DNA of 64,000 nt from Azospirillum brasilense. Its GTDB lineage: Bacteria; Pseudomonadota; Alphaproteobacteria; Azospirillales; Azospirillaceae. The stretch spans positions 623,001 to 687,000 of the forward strand of contig NZ_CP032345.1 of assembly GCF_005222205.1 (NCBI RefSeq), given 5' to 3'. The position numbers were made by a program, and so were the translations under genes. Below the pieces are notes generated by a model. The model made no database searches, was not told the DNA's origin, and saw nothing but the letters and a program-made list of their open reading frames with translations. Below are positions 18,633 through 30,025 of the stretch, piece after piece (the stretch's first letter is position 1; each line of letters starts with the position of its first letter).

Positions 18633-19310
18633 TCATTGCGGCGCCCGCAGGCTGTAGCCGGCGCCGCGCACCGTGTGGATCAGCGGCGTCGGGAAATCCT
18701 TGTCGATCTTCTGGCGCAGGCGGGCGATGTGCACATCGATGACGTTGGTCTGCGGGTCGAAGTGATAGTCCCACACATTCTCCAGCATCATGGTGCGGGT
18801 CACCACGCTGCCGGCGTTGCGCATCAAATACTCCAACAGGGCGAATTCCCGCGGCAGCAGGTCGATGGACTTGCCGGCCCGCCGGACGGTGCGCGACAGC
18901 AGGTCCAGCTCCAGGTCGGCGACCGAAAGGCGGGTCTGCGGCTGGGCGGCGCTGCGGCGGCGCACCAGCACCTCGATCCGGGCGAGCAGCTCGGAAAAGG
19001 CGAAGGGCTTGGTCAGGTAATCGTCGCCGCCAGCCTTCAGCCCCTTCACCCGGTCGTCGACGCTGCCGAGCGCGGAGAGGAACAGCACCGGCGTGTCGTT
19101 GCCGGTGGCGCGCAGGATCTCGACCAACGACAGCCCGTCGCGGCCCGGCAGCATGCGGTCCACGATCATGACGTCGTAATGCTCGGAGCCGGCCAGGAAC
19201 AGCCCCTCCTTGCCGTCGTTGGCGGCGTCCACGACATGCCCGGCCTCCTTCAGCCCCTTGGCCAGATAGGAGGCGGCCTGCTGGTCGTCTTCGATGACGA
19301 GGACTTTCAT
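18633..19310 (-). CDS. OmpR-family response regulator (degP-linked)
   Basis: A 225-residue transcription factor. The receiver has Asp8-Asp9, phosphoacceptor Asp51 in MIVDRMLPG and Lys in YLTKPF; the winged-helix DNA-binding domain (about 128-222) ends with IHTVRGAGYSL, typical of OmpR/PhoB. Start ATG 19310 is chosen because homologues begin MKVLVIEDD; an ATG two codons upstream is also possible. It lies 48 bases before the cognate kinase and 178 bases after degP, all on one strand. Likely to control degP or other envelope genes. Confidence 0.93.
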   Translation of the reverse strand: MKVLVIEDDQQAASYLAKGLKEAGHVVDAANDGKEGLFLAGSEHYDVMIVDRMLPGRDGLSLVEILRATGNDTPVLFLSALGSVDDRVKGLKAGGDDYLTKPFAFSELLARIEVLVRRRSAAQPQTRLSVADLELDLLSRTVRRAGKSIDLLPREFALLEYLMRNAGSVVTRTMMLENVWDYHFDPQTNVIDVHIARLRQKIDKDFPTPLIHTVRGAGYSLRAPQ

Positions 19311-19339
19311 GAGCATGAGTCTACCGCATCCTTCCGCGA

Positions 19340-19418
19340 GTCCAAAGGTGAATGCCCCCGCCCCTGCGGGGAGGGGAAAGGGCCAAACGACACGAAGGGG
19401 GAGGACGTCCGCGCGGCG
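19340..19418. repeat. GC-rich hairpin resembling the interspersed element
   Basis: The segment between degP and the regulator gene holds CCCCGCCCCTGCGGGGAGGGG and GGGGGAGGA blocks like half of the elements at 12377 and 27946. It may be a degenerate copy. It could attenuate transcription between degP and the regulator. Confidence 0.4.
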
Positions 19419-19488
19419 GGGGTTCGCACCGCGGACATCCTCCACCCCATCACACCGGAGACGGGAGGATCGCCGGTGTTACCCTGCG

Positions 19489-21045
19489 TCACGCCTTGAC
19501 GAGCTTCAGCGGGACGAAACTCTCGTTGCCGCCGCGGTTGACCAGCAGCAGGACCGCCTTGCGGCCATCCTTCTCGGCCTCGTGCAGGCTCTTGGTCACC
19601 TCCGCGGGGGAGGTCACGCTGTGGTCGCCGACCTTGACGATCACGTCGCCCGGACGGACGGGCAGATCACCGGCCTGCGGCGACACCGAGGTGACGACCA
19701 CACCCTTGACGCCCTCGCCCAGGCCGAGGCGGCTGCGGGTGGCGCCGTCCAGCGGGGCCAGCTTCAGCCCGTTGACGGTCTCCACCGCGCTGTCGGCGGC
19801 GGGGCCGGCCCCCTCGGCGGCGGCCATGCGCTGCTCGGCGGGCAGCGGAGCGATGTGGGCGGTGAGCGTCGTCTCCTTGCCCTTGCGCACCACGGTCATG
19901 TCCACCGTGTCGCCGGCCTTGGTGTCGGCCACCCGGCGGGTCAGGTCGCGCAGCGTGTTCACCGGCTTGCCGCCGTAGGCCAGGATCACGTCGCCCTGGC
20001 GCACGCCGGCCTTGGCGGCCGGGCTGTCCGGTGTCACCTCGGCGACCAGGGCACCCTTGCTCTGGGACAGGCCGACCGACTCGGCGATCTCCGGCGAGAT
20101 CTCCTGGATCTTCACGCCCAGCCAGCCGCGCTCGACATGGCCGTTCTCCTTGAGCTGGGCGACGACCTGCTTGGCGATGTTCGACGGGATGGCGAAGCCG
20201 ATGCCGACCGAACCGCCGTTGGGCGAATAGATGGCGGTGTTGATGCCGATCACCCGGCCGTCGAGGGTAAAGGTCGGACCGCCCGAGTTGCCGCGGTTGA
20301 TGGCGGCGTCGAGCTGCAGATAGTCGTCATAGGGGCCGCTGTGGATGTCGCGCCCGCGGGCCGAGATGATGCCCTTGGTCACCGTTCCGCCCAGCCCGAA
20401 GGGGTTGCCGACGGCCATCACCCAATCGCCGACGCGGGCGGCGTCGCTGTCGCCCCAATCCAATGCGGGCAGCGCCTTGTCGGACTTCACCTTCAGCAGC
20501 GCGATGTCGGTCTTGGCGTCGCGCCCGACCAGCGTGGCGGGCAGCTCCGTCCCGTCCTGGAGCGTGACCTTGATCTCGTCGGCGCCGTCGATGACATGGT
20601 TGTTGGTCACCACATAGCCGGCCGCGTCGATGATGAAGCCTGAGCCGAGCGAGCCGATCTTGCCGCGCGGCTGGCCCTCGGGCTGGTTGTCGGACTGGTC
20701 GTCGCCACCCGGAGCGCCGTTTTGGCCGAACTGGTCCTGGAACTGGCGGAAGAACTCTTCGAACGGCGACCCCGGCGGGAAGCCGGGCATGCGCGGGGTG
20801 CCGCGCTCGGCCTTGGCCTGCTGGGTGGTGGAGACGTTCACCACGGCGGGCGACACCTTGGCCGCCAGATCGGCGAAGCTGCCCGGCATGTTCTGCGTCA
20901 GGGCGCTTTCGGCGGCCGCGGCGGTGGACTGGTTGGCGATCAGGAACGGACCGGTCAGCACCGTGGTGCCGAGGAGGACGGCGGCGATGGTACGCCGCAC
21001 CCGGCTCGACCGCGGGACGCGTCCGGCGTTGGCGGGGGTGGACAT
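19489..21045 (-). CDS. degP: periplasmic serine protease DegP (Do/HtrA family)
   Basis: A 518-residue periplasmic protease and chaperone. The N-terminal signal/anchor segment (about 17-45) has an Ala-rich end. The trypsin-like domain carries His150 in TNNHVIDG, Asp180 in TDIALLK and Ser254 in RGNSGGP. Two PDZ domains follow (about 310-400 and 425-515). A Gln/Gly/Pro-rich loop (about 85-130) precedes the protease core, as in the LA loop of DegP. ATG 21045 has GGAGAG upstream; an in-frame ATG at 21108 is less likely. First gene of a probable operon with the regulator and kinase. Confidence 0.95.
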   Translation of the reverse strand: MSTPANAGRVPRSSRVRRTIAAVLLGTTVLTGPFLIANQSTAAAAESALTQNMPGSFADLAAKVSPAVVNVSTTQQAKAERGTPRMPGFPPGSPFEEFFRQFQDQFGQNGAPGGDDQSDNQPEGQPRGKIGSLGSGFIIDAAGYVVTNNHVIDGADEIKVTLQDGTELPATLVGRDAKTDIALLKVKSDKALPALDWGDSDAARVGDWVMAVGNPFGLGGTVTKGIISARGRDIHSGPYDDYLQLDAAINRGNSGGPTFTLDGRVIGINTAIYSPNGGSVGIGFAIPSNIAKQVVAQLKENGHVERGWLGVKIQEISPEIAESVGLSQSKGALVAEVTPDSPAAKAGVRQGDVILAYGGKPVNTLRDLTRRVADTKAGDTVDMTVVRKGKETTLTAHIAPLPAEQRMAAAEGAGPAADSAVETVNGLKLAPLDGATRSRLGLGEGVKGVVVTSVSPQAGDLPVRPGDVIVKVGDHSVTSPAEVTKSLHEAEKDGRKAVLLLVNRGGNESFVPLKLVKA

Positions 21046-27945: not shown

Positions 27946-28050
27946 TGCCCCCACCCCGGCCCTCCCCCGCTACCGCAGGGGAGGGAGATTTCTGCGAAGC
28001 GGCGGCAGTCCCCTCCCCTGCGAAGCGGGGGAGGGTTAGGGAGCGGGCAA
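27946..28050. repeat. GC-rich interspersed palindromic element, copy B
   Basis: Starts nine bases after the topB stop. It has the blocks CGGCCCTCCCCCGCT, GCAGGGGAGGGAGAT, CCCCTCCC and GCGGGGGAGGGTTAGGG in the same order as at 12377-12471. The sequence folds into two hairpins. Confidence 0.75.
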
Positions 28051-28083: not shown

Positions 28084-28105
28084 CTGTGGCCCAGGCCACA
28101 GCGGC
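28084..28105 (+). promoter_or_regulatory. palindromic promoter-region element, copy 1
   Basis: CTGTGG then a spacer then CACAGCGGC, including the perfect inverted repeat TGTGGCC-CA-GGCCACA. A near copy (17 of 22 bases identical) lies at 29055-29076 before the third gene of the cluster. In both, CCTA follows at nearly the same distance (36 and 37 bases from the left end). Probably an operator or part of a shared promoter. Confidence 0.55.
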
Positions 28106-28171: not shown

Positions 28172-28621
28172 ATGCGCCGCCTGACCCTGATCGCCGTCGC
28201 CGCCACCACGCTGCTCGCCGCGCCCCACGCCTTCGCCAACGACCTCAAGACCGGCGGCATGCCGGTCAACCCGATGATGATGCAGCCGGGCTTCGGCAGC
28301 CCCTTCGCCGCGGCGCCCTCGCTCTCCAACACCAACGTCGGTGTCGCGACGAACCTCGCGGCGGGGATCGGCAACAAGGCCAAGCAGAACGTCTTCACCA
28401 TGCAGCAGGGCACCGGCGGGTCGCTGGTGAACACCAACGTCGGCGTCGCCACCAACGTCGCCGCCGGGATCGGCAACAAGGCCAAGCAGAACGTCACCGG
28501 CGTCACCTTCGGCTTCGGCAAGGGCGGCCTGCTCGACACCAACGTCGGGGTGACGACCAACGTCGCCGCCGGCATCGGCAACGCCGCCGGGCAGAGTCTG
28601 TTTGGTCTCAAGGCCCAGTGA
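28172..28621 (+). CDS. exported protein with three NVGxAxNxAxGxGNxAxQ repeats
   Basis: A 149-residue protein with a clear signal peptide (cleavage likely after AFA, about residue 22). The mature part is mostly three copies of a 22-residue unit of the form NTNVGVATNVAAGIGNKAKQ, starting at 53, 87 and 122 (spacing 34 and 35), joined by Gly-rich linkers. There are no cysteines. Alternating small and polar residues suggest beta strands stacked as a solenoid or amyloid-like fibre; the G-x-GN-x-A-x-Q part is reminiscent of curlin repeats but with a shorter NxA-to-Q spacing. The function is not known to me. A good GGAGGAG site precedes the ATG. First of three similarly organised exported proteins. 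Confidence 0.88.
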   Translation: MRRLTLIAVAATTLLAAPHAFANDLKTGGMPVNPMMMQPGFGSPFAAAPSLSNTNVGVATNLAAGIGNKAKQNVFTMQQGTGGSLVNTNVGVATNVAAGIGNKAKQNVTGVTFGFGKGGLLDTNVGVTTNVAAGIGNAAGQSLFGLKAQ

Positions 28622-28633
28622 TCCACCCCACCC

Positions 28634-28660
28634 GGCGCCGCCGATCCACCCGGCGGCGCC
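28634..28660 (+). terminator. hairpin between the first and second repeat-protein genes
   Basis: 10-bp stem GGCGCCGCCG / CGGCGGCGCC with a 7-base loop, followed by TCCTTCC rather than a clean T-run. It could be a weak terminator or a stabiliser of the upstream mRNA. Confidence 0.5.
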
Positions 28661-28693
28661 TCCTTCCGGATTCCTCATTGGAGGACTGCCGCC

Positions 28694-29044
28694 ATGCTCC
28701 GCTTCGCCCTGCCGGTCTTCGGTGCGCTCGCCGCCATCCTGACCCTGGCCGGAACCCCGCAGACCGCCGCCGCCGAAAACCTCGCCTGCCAGACGGTCAA
28801 CGGGAAGACGGTGTGCAGCCGCGGCTCGGGCTCGCTGTCGTGCCAGACGGTCAACGACCGGACGACCTGCGTGACCGGGCCGGGCGCGCTGACCTGCGAG
28901 ACCGTGAACGGCCACACCGCCTGCCGCCGCGGCCCGTCGCAGCCGGACCTGAAGCCGATGCCCATGCCGCCGATGCCCCCGCAGGCCGCCCCGATGCCCG
29001 ACCGCCCCTTCGGCAAGAACTTCCCTTTTGAGGAAGAGGCGTAA
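28694..29044 (+). CDS. exported protein with six evenly spaced cysteines
   Basis: A 116-residue protein with a signal peptide (cleavage likely after TAAA, about 27). Residues 30-83 are three 18-residue repeats (LACQTVNGKTVCSRGSGS and two variants). Cysteines fall at 32, 41, 50, 59, 68 and 77, each exactly nine apart. Each CQTVNGKTVC unit looks like a beta hairpin with an NG turn that a disulfide could close. The tail is rich in Pro and Met (PMPMPPMPP) and ends acidic. The family is not recognised. GGAGGA precedes the ATG by nine bases. It sits between two other exported repeat proteins. Confidence 0.86.
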   Translation: MLRFALPVFGALAAILTLAGTPQTAAAENLACQTVNGKTVCSRGSGSLSCQTVNDRTTCVTGPGALTCETVNGHTACRRGPSQPDLKPMPMPPMPPQAAPMPDRPFGKNFPFEEEA

Positions 29045-29054
29045 AGCGCCCCAC

Positions 29055-29076
29055 CTGTGGTCCGCCTCACAGCGGC
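29055..29076 (+). promoter_or_regulatory. palindromic promoter-region element, copy 2
   Basis: CTGTGG, ten-odd variable bases in the middle, then CACAGCGGC, matching the element at 28084-28105. It lies 77 bases before the third gene's ATG (88 for the first). It begins 11 bases after the second gene's stop, indicating that the third gene has its own promoter under the same control. Confidence 0.55.
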
Positions 29077-29131
29077 TCCCCGCCCGGGCGCCCTAGGATC
29101 AGCGCACACCGCCGAACAGAGGAGCCCCGCC

Positions 29132-29980
29132 ATGATCCGCATCCGCCGCTTCGCGCCGCTGCTGTCCGGCCTCGCCGCCCTGGCGCTGCTGGGCGGGACC
29201 GCCGCCGCCCAGGATGCCGGCGGCTTCTCCGTCAACCCTCAGCTCGGCGCGGCGGTTGGCATGTCGATGGGCATGGGCATGGGGATGCCGCCGCTGCTGC
29301 CGCGCCAGCCCGTCTTCGTCAACGCCACCCGGCGCGGCGCGCCTCCGGGGGCGACGGTGACCAACCCCAACGTCAGCCGGCAGGCGACGCACCAGCAGGC
29401 CATCGCCAAGATCCGCGGCGACGCCGGCTTCCTGGGCGGCTTCAACAAGGGCCAGGCGCTGGCCGCCAGCCGCCAGCCGCCGCCGGAACCGATCGTGCCG
29501 AACTTCACCTTCATCGACGCGCCCTTCATCGTGAACAACTTCGACAGCTCGCTGGCCCTGTCCTTCGGCGACAGCAACGTGACGGAGCAATTCATCATCC
29601 AGGGTGCGGACGGGTCCGCCGGCGGTGGCGGCGGCGCTGGTGGTGTCGCAGAGCAGCCTGCCGTGCCGGCCTCCTCCGGGCAGACGCCAACCCCGCTCCA
29701 GGCCGCCGCTCCGGTGCAGGCTCCACCCCCGGTGCAGGCGAAGGCTCCGACTCCGAAGCCCCAGCCGGGGGTGACCACCGGCAACGGCGGCCCGCCGCCC
29801 GAGGGCTTCTTCGACCCGGTGATGAGCAACTTCGGTCCGCTGCCGCATCTGCCCGCGGCGCTGGCCAGCGGCGGCATCCAGTTCAACAACGTCGGCAGCG
29901 CCTTCAACGCCGCCATGGGCCAGGGCAACGTTGCCTCCCAGCAGATCACCAGCATCCAGGGAAAGAAGGGCAAGCGCTGA
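29132..29980 (+). CDS. exported protein sharing the NVGxAxNxAxGxGNxAxQ motif
   Basis: A 282-residue protein with a signal peptide (cleavage likely after TAAA). It has a Met/Gly stretch (GMSMGMGMGMPP), a central segment with NFDSSLALSFGDSNVTEQ, a Gly run then a Pro/Ala/Gln-rich linker, and near the C-terminus NVGSAFNAAMGQGNVASQ, which aligns without gaps to the repeat of the protein encoded at 28172. The central segment also keeps the motif's N, G, N and Q positions (1, 11, 14, 18). The function is unknown; it may nucleate, cap or anchor the first protein. GAGGAG precedes ATG 29132. It ends at a strong bidirectional terminator. Confidence 0.87.
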   Translation: MIRIRRFAPLLSGLAALALLGGTAAAQDAGGFSVNPQLGAAVGMSMGMGMGMPPLLPRQPVFVNATRRGAPPGATVTNPNVSRQATHQQAIAKIRGDAGFLGGFNKGQALAASRQPPPEPIVPNFTFIDAPFIVNNFDSSLALSFGDSNVTEQFIIQGADGSAGGGGGAGGVAEQPAVPASSGQTPTPLQAAAPVQAPPPVQAKAPTPKPQPGVTTGNGGPPPEGFFDPVMSNFGPLPHLPAALASGGIQFNNVGSAFNAAMGQGNVASQQITSIQGKKGKR

Positions 29981-29994
29981 GCCTTCGACAAAGA

Positions 29995-30025
29995 AAAGCC
30001 CCCTTGCCGGCGGCAAGGGGGCTTT
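29995..30025. terminator. bidirectional terminator between the repeat-protein cluster and the glucan synthase
   Basis: 14-bp stem AAAGCCCCCTTGCC / GGCAAGGGGGCTTT around GGC. The plus side reads on TTTCTCC, the minus side TTTTCTTT. It lies 15 bases after one stop and 21 before the other, between convergent genes. Confidence 0.9.

Follow-up and report, generated by a model that had tools for sequence, protein, structure and literature searches.

A candidate CsgG-type surface-fiber system with FapC-like repeat proteins in Azospirillum

Introduction

Curli and Fap are secreted bacterial functional amyloids, and together with the HfaABD holdfast anchor of Caulobacter they are the described systems closest to the locus analyzed here, three adjacent genes (genes 1, 2, and 3, hereafter the trio) of Azospirillum brasilense. 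The window, i.e., the whole stretch of 64,000 nucleotides that was analyzed, corresponds to C1:623001-687000 of a 7.2-Mb, six-contig genome, and the trio occupies positions 28172-29980 on its + strand, where the initial annotation had rightly placed three adjacent signal-peptide open reading frames (ORFs).

The accessible part of one report describes alphaproteobacterial curli without csgC, csgD, and csgE, with csgF missing in about half of the genera (PMC3521004); thus, a reduced export set has precedent. A 2013 survey, as far as its available text goes, places Fap, encoded by a fapABCDEF operon, in three proteobacterial classes and no others, namely Beta-, Gamma-, and Deltaproteobacteria (PMC3792158). 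The FapC motif and the Asn/Gln framework, as given in the available portion of the publication, read much like the gene 1 repeat (PMC12392863). In Caulobacter, HfaB is CsgG-like, whereas HfaA is curlin-like and forms resistant multimers, according to the sections at hand (PMC6707917).

It is likely that genes 1-3 are exported components of a CsgG-type surface-fiber system in Azospirillum and a few relatives. This system is probably amyloid-like and Crp-controlled, in that we infer fiber formation, export, and Crp binding. The literature searched, largely without subscription papers and mostly judged from listings, contained no description of such a system; the earlier statement that no described system has this makeup went too far for the repeat, which is close to that of FapC (NVGV--NVAAGxGN).

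Repeat proteins of the trio

Features of the trio and its repeats (window positions):
28172-28621, + strand: gene 1, 149 aa; signal peptide and three predicted beta-arc repeats of ~34 residues
28334-28387, + strand: repeat core 1 of gene 1, NVGVATNLAAGIGNKAKQ
28436-28489, + strand: repeat core 2 of gene 1, NVGVATNVAAGIGNKAKQ
28541-28594, + strand: repeat core 3 of gene 1, NVGVTTNVAAGIGNAAGQ
28694-29044, + strand: gene 2, 116 aa; signal-peptide protein with three CxTVNxxTxC units
28787-28924, + strand: three units of gene 2, each with a Cys pair (Cys 32/41, 50/59, 68/77; from sequence and alignment)
29132-29980, + strand: gene 3, 282 aa; signal peptide, a domain without repeats that is conserved (RGDAGFLxGFxxGQ..SRQ), and one or two copies of the repeat
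29537-29590, + strand: degenerate repeat copy of gene 3 (residues 136-153), NFDSSLALSFGDSNVTEQ, 4/9
29888-29941, + strand: full repeat copy of gene 3, NVGSAFNAAMGQGNVASQ, 9/9

The motif NVGxAxNxAxGxGNxAxQ was scored as nine fixed positions; when each mature protein was shuffled 20,000 times with its composition kept, the best score was 8/9. The three copies in gene 1 (residues 55-72, 89-106, and 124-141) and the one in gene 3 (residues 253-270) all score 9/9; these four full copies, as counted in the initial annotation, are far beyond chance. The second, "older-looking" copy proposed for gene 3 fares differently, since its 4/9 is the most frequent best score among shuffles and thus at chance level in this sequence alone, yet its N, G, N, and Q are kept in all seven aligned Azospirillum sequences, its own among them. 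In the L034 ortholog, the corresponding stretch is NINSALNIAIGEGNSTDQ (7/9 by manual count), while in more distant orthologs the copy decays. Simple internal repeats had been claimed for all three proteins; genes 1 and 3 share the motif, and the repeats of gene 2 are of another kind.

Searches of Pfam and NCBIfam assigned the trio to no family: the sole match of gene 2 is a Clip domain (E 0.037), and genes 1 and 3 have no Pfam match at E <= 1. A PDB sequence search with gene 1 found nothing, and one with the gene 1-family profile returned two weak matches only (E 0.8 and 1.5). The structural model of gene 1 displays three strand-turn-strand units with the turn at GIGN, at low-to-moderate confidence (pLDDT 55-78 for blocks of the repeat region), in support of the stacked beta strands suggested earlier. 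A Foldseek search of this model against 350,542 chains ranked FapC first (E 0.005) and a CsgA fibril second (E 0.059). Taken together, the similarity and model results for gene 1 support a predicted beta-arc stack, which is not proof of an amyloid.

FapC of Pseudomonas sp. UK4 carries SSGNVGVNVAAGQGNQQKNNLAI, and its alignment with gene 1, NVGV--NVAAGxGNxxKxN, scores 58, above 3000/3000 shuffles. Curlin was also considered as the closest relative and rejected; gene 1 scores 69 against an Azospirillum curlin, a value reached by 29/1000 shuffles, and no homology is claimed. Together with a PF07012 (curlin) search of the genome, which gave no match while the E. coli control was positive, this bears out the earlier view that the trio is not classical curlin. 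In their sequence, the motif repeats appear to resemble FapC more closely than curlin.

Distribution and conservation

The gene 1 family has matches in 34 of the 82 genomes of the order, i.e., 34/45 of Azospirillum and 0/37 of the others, and the gene 2 and gene 3 families match in exactly the same 34 genomes. The order 1-2-3 is kept in 14/14 loci (L001-L014), so the co-occurrence of the three genes is borne out. Gene 1 paralogs are frequent across genomes, and the genome studied here has two near-identical solitary copies at C1:1874479 and C4:23368. The counterpart of gene 1 in Azospirillum brasilense HAMBI_3172 is 99% identical. Over 12 pairwise comparisons, dN/dS was 0.12-0.60 (gene 1, 0.12-0.40; gene 2, 0.14-0.60; gene 3, 0.17-0.35), and all three are therefore genes under purifying selection. 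Plasmid records label the relatives "hypothetical protein" (7/7 records).

A scan of named records yielded 72 loci: 61 in Azospirillum, three in Roseomonas genomospecies 6, two in Caenispirillum, two in Telmatospirillum, three in Rhodospirillales metagenome-assembled genomes (MAGs), and one in a Magnetospirillum MAG. The contig of the last (L087, JANQAI010000005.1) carries a gene 1 paralog with flanks nearly identical to those of the A. brasilense-like L031, and it is probably misbinned or mislabelled.

The CsgG-like lipoprotein and its cluster

The lipoprotein linked to the trio carries a lipoprotein signal and has a predicted fold nearest to CsgG, with CsgG structures scoring best; the length of both membrane-hairpin regions is kept (manual reading of alignments). 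It is fused to PG_binding_1 (peptidoglycan-binding) and DUF4384 domains, which are also found in the lipoproteins of L094, L117, and L099. Repeat genes and gene 3 adjoin the lipoprotein gene in L094, L097, and L117, accompanied by gene 2 in L094, and a repeat gene adjoins it in L099.

A single cluster in both A. agricola (L138) and A. doebereinerae (L139) combines gene 1 copies with genes 2 and 3 and with genes for a Crp-type regulator, the CsgG-like protein, a caspase-FGE protein, a CHASE2 class III cyclase, and a DUF4384 protein; the gene for an OmpA-type protein was seen in L139. The regulator is a cNMP-binding/HTH_Crp_2 protein in the genome studied here and in L138, where the class III cyclase was also tested. 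The second half of such a cluster, with the CsgG-like gene at C1:474382-475905, lies at about C1:465-479 kb in the genome studied here, ~175 kb from the trio. As a separate observation, near-identical inverted gene 1 paralogs bracket the A. agricola cluster (L138 2371-2967, + strand, and 19043-19639, - strand), which suggests a recent duplication or inversion around it. A defense-system reading was rejected, in that the PADLOC caspase and Pycsar-cyclase matches of two cluster proteins were taken as shared domains; PADLOC gave no match for the trio, the DUF4384 protein, or the CsgG-like protein.

Co-occurrence with CsgG/CsgE-like secretion genes, raised in the initial annotation, was found for this divergent CsgG-type lipoprotein, with strong matches in 33/34 trio genomes vs. 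0/11 trio-less genomes of the genus, one of which (G028) holds a 36% homolog. In the sole trio genome without a strong match (G013), the neighboring DUF4384 gene is on a contig that stops at 210,527, before the position predicted from the genome studied here, and no other CsgG-like copy was found in G013. Five genomes of another genus, g37, lack the trio and encode the CsgG-like protein at 57-59% identity.

Repeat proteins beside the CsgG-like gene in other genera

Nine CsgG-like loci without the trio were scanned, comprising L169-L171 (one genome each) and L188-L193, a set that does not include three genomes matching the DUF4384 part alone; G071, G101, and G103-G105 also match and were left out. 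An exported internal-repeat protein is encoded within 7.4 kb of the CsgG-like gene at 7/9 loci, within 0.5 kb at four of them; the protein of L189 is built from GGVKIGGNANQTTTVLGTTNTTALGLGSEAKTRIGSV units. When L094, L117, and L099 were scanned too, such a protein was found at 2/3 (the start of the L099 repeat gene is lost at the contig end), giving 9/12 in total, with L097 outside the scan. Under the same thresholds, such a protein is encoded at 2/20 hand-picked 20-kb control loci (one membrane protein and one WD40-like, by manual reading); seven of the nine tested genomes supplied 15 of these loci and the genome studied here five. The channel gene therefore tends to keep repeat-protein neighbors even beyond sequence recognition. 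Longer repeat proteins of another kind are encoded 2-4 kb from the CsgG-like gene in L191.

A Crp-type palindrome at both halves

28085-28100, no strand assigned: Crp-type palindrome, TGTGGCCCAGGCCACA, 87 bp upstream of the gene 1 ATG
29056-29071, no strand assigned: Crp-type palindrome, TGTGGTCCGCCTCACA, 76 bp upstream of the gene 3 ATG

The strict pattern TGTGR-N6-YCACA, which we take to resemble the E. coli CRP site, was first noticed in the window, where these two are its sole matches, and then tested in other genomes. The genome studied here has 16 strict sites, six of which are at the system: four precede genes 1 and 3 and the two gene 1 paralogs, and the others are in the channel cluster, where one lies between divergent DUF1150 and DUF4384 genes and one before the OmpA-type gene. 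The palindrome at both halves therefore links the separated trio and channel cluster independently of gene order. Corresponding genes hold 6/14 sites in G019 and 6/14 (13 listed) in G035. Gene 1- and gene 3-family genes are preceded by 3/15 sites in G014 and 3/18 in G007, with one further site in each 1.8 kb past the CsgG-like gene. Among family genes with enough upstream DNA, 63/66 have a strict site within 200 bp upstream (48/50 of the gene 1 family and 15/16 of the gene 3 family), a sample that includes close orthologs and is hence not independent. The 20 control loci (400 kb in total) contain one strict site.

Palindromes also occur beside other genes. A strict palindrome lies 75 bp upstream of the start codon (ATG) for an exported 144-aa protein without Pfam match (L225 1501-2010; C1:1044730 in the genome studied here), and G019 and G035 hold a site identical in sequence; this protein may belong to the palindrome regulon. 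Three related small proteins (SSKKLRNV.VAGKRTSMRLE..FW; L219, L227, and L232) adjoin further palindromes of the pattern (TGTGAGATCCATCACA twice, TGTGAAGTTCATCACA) and are perhaps self-regulating repressors.

Other features of the locus

29995-30025, no strand assigned: inverted repeat of high G+C content that separates gene 3 from the convergent gene after it, a possible terminator seen in the sequence

A pattern scan for promoters and terminators returned nothing useful, and this inverted repeat is absent from its output. GGAGG/AGGAG-like stretches precede the ATG of all three genes. For gene 3, the ORF list gives a GTG start at 29057, whereas the ATG at 29132 agrees with the signal peptide. 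The trio is flanked by a same-strand topoisomerase-like ORF on one side and a convergent glycosyltransferase-like ORF on the other (translations read by eye). Upstream of gene 1, at 27955-28045, a G+C-rich intergenic palindromic element (CCCTCCCC...GGGGAGGG) was observed that recurs in the channel cluster (L167 8900-9035) and looks like a dispersed REP-like repeat.

Proposed mechanism and alternative explanations

In the proposed mechanism, Sec would export the proteins of genes 1, 2, and 3, and the CsgG-like lipoprotein would serve as the outer-membrane channel that passes the repeat proteins. The gene 1 protein would be the main fiber subunit, whose Asn/Gln-laddered beta arcs may stack into an amyloid-like fiber, while the gene 3 protein, in which a non-repeat domain is joined by one or two copies of the repeat, may nucleate or anchor the fiber, assisted by the gene 2 protein as a putative disulfide-bonded accessory. 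The Crp-family regulator of the cluster would activate genes 1 and 3 along with the dispersed gene 1 paralogs and a portion of the channel cluster, and the CHASE2-cyclase perhaps supplies its signal. We tentatively suggest, as a possibility with somewhat less than an even chance, that curli and Fap are joined here by a third class of functional amyloid secreted by bacteria, in which a PG-binding/DUF4384 CsgG-fold channel serves several unrelated Asn-rich repeat families across Alphaproteobacteria; this class would have its own cyclic-nucleotide/Crp regulon and a coupling to a caspase-FGE protein and to a CHASE2 cyclase.

Several observations weigh against a CsgG-type fiber system. The gene 1 model has a mean pLDDT of 59; its Foldseek matches are weak, with 0/62 at E <= 0.001 and the best at E 5e-3 and TM 0.13; and VIA-align 2 scores SufB at 5.9, CsgA at 4.2, and FapC at 3.3, so that SufB/SufD rank above both amyloids. 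The sequence similarity of the lipoprotein to CsgG is likewise weak: in L094, L117, and L099, the match to PF03783 (E 0.003-0.02) is below the cut-off, no PF03783 match at E <= 0.001 exists in the genome studied here, with the G026 and G034 orthologs passing this cut-off, and hhalign aligns the CsgG-like protein with CsgG at a probability of 51% (E 1.6e-4). Both membrane-hairpin regions (143-169 and 202-225) are present in its model at pLDDT < 50. The trio and the channel cluster are separated in the genome studied here, co-occurrence inside one genus partly reflects descent, and two of the nine channel loci (L191 and L193) yielded no such repeat protein in the scan. No strict site precedes gene 2 or the CsgG-like, caspase, DUF4399, and Crp genes, nor four outgroup genes in L094 and L117. 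Furthermore, trio-less genomes also hold strict sites (nine in G003 and 15 in G011), and a reversed control pattern occurs nine times in the genome studied here; the palindrome is therefore not peculiar to the system.

Alternatively, the repeat proteins could assemble on the CsgG-like lipoprotein into a small patch, resistant to SDS, by which polysaccharide is held at the outer membrane, like HfaA/HfaD on HfaB of the Caulobacter holdfast. The Hfa properties cited above, the peptidoglycan-binding domain of the trio-linked channel, and the glycosyltransferase-like gene after the trio (manual reading) agree with such an anchor, which we nevertheless regard as unlikely, since the several gene 1 paralogs of many genomes fit a bulk polymer better and the glycosyltransferase-like neighbor is not kept in L033 and L138, where the caspase-FGE gene follows gene 3. 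It is quite improbable that the proteins are periplasmic or outer-membrane beta-solenoids, neither secreted by a CsgG-like route nor polymerizing, with the lipoprotein as a non-pore scaffold like PelC or FlgT, because CsgG structures score best against the lipoprotein, both hairpin regions are kept in length, and exported repeat proteins recur beside the channel gene in other genera. A diverged Fap system, with gene 1 as a FapC homolog and Fap-type secretion, is highly improbable despite the shuffle-tested alignment and the first Foldseek rank of FapC, since the gene 1-family profile, run up to E 10 against a PDB set with two FapC chains, matched neither of them (motif convergence is possible), no FapD- or FapF-like neighbor was noticed at the loci, for which no model search was made, and the 2013 survey found Fap in other proteobacterial classes only (PMC3792158).

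The proposed CsgG-type surface-fiber system is directly testable by gene deletion, given a candidate promoter element, channel, and regulator. Azospirillum is widely applied to plants as an inoculant, a use for which root attachment and flocculation matter. If fibers form, an Asn/Gln repeat of the FapC type would be shown to work together with a CsgG-type channel, which bears on the evolution of functional amyloids, and the channel-plus-repeat pattern offers a route to hidden amyloid substrates outside all family models.

Comparison with known systems

The HfaABD holdfast anchor resembles the trio system in that an alphaproteobacterial CsgG-like protein has amyloid-like partners, a likeness by description drawn from the accessible part of the source (PMC6707917).

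Curli (CsgA/CsgB/CsgG/CsgF/CsgE) shares with the trio system exported beta-arc repeats with GxGNxA, a CsgG-fold lipoprotein, and at least two repeat proteins per genome. However, the curlin, CsgG, and CsgF models have no match at E <= 0.001 in the genome studied here (0 matches for PF10614, i.e., CsgF, with a positive E. coli control), the gene set is different, and the trio-linked channel bears PG_binding_1 and DUF4384. In A. rugosum, CsgG and a curlin matched by PF07012 over 11 stretches make up a canonical curli locus (L140 5785-10142) ~6 kb from gene 1-family copies, and both systems therefore coexist in this species.

Fap (FapC/FapB of Pseudomonas), in the portion of the source available, has imperfect repeats of the type N-psi-G-psi...N-psi-A-A-G-x-G-N and an Asn/Gln framework (PMC12392863), much as the three repeats of gene 1 appear to have. 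The trio differs in a two-residue insertion, in Q at N+4 rather than QN at N+2/+3, and in its ~34-residue unit, as well as in its alphaproteobacterial host and its link to a CsgG-like protein rather than FapF. Overall, the system looks like one that works as curli or Fap does, standing outside curli by the curlin and CsgF tests and having a divergent CsgG.
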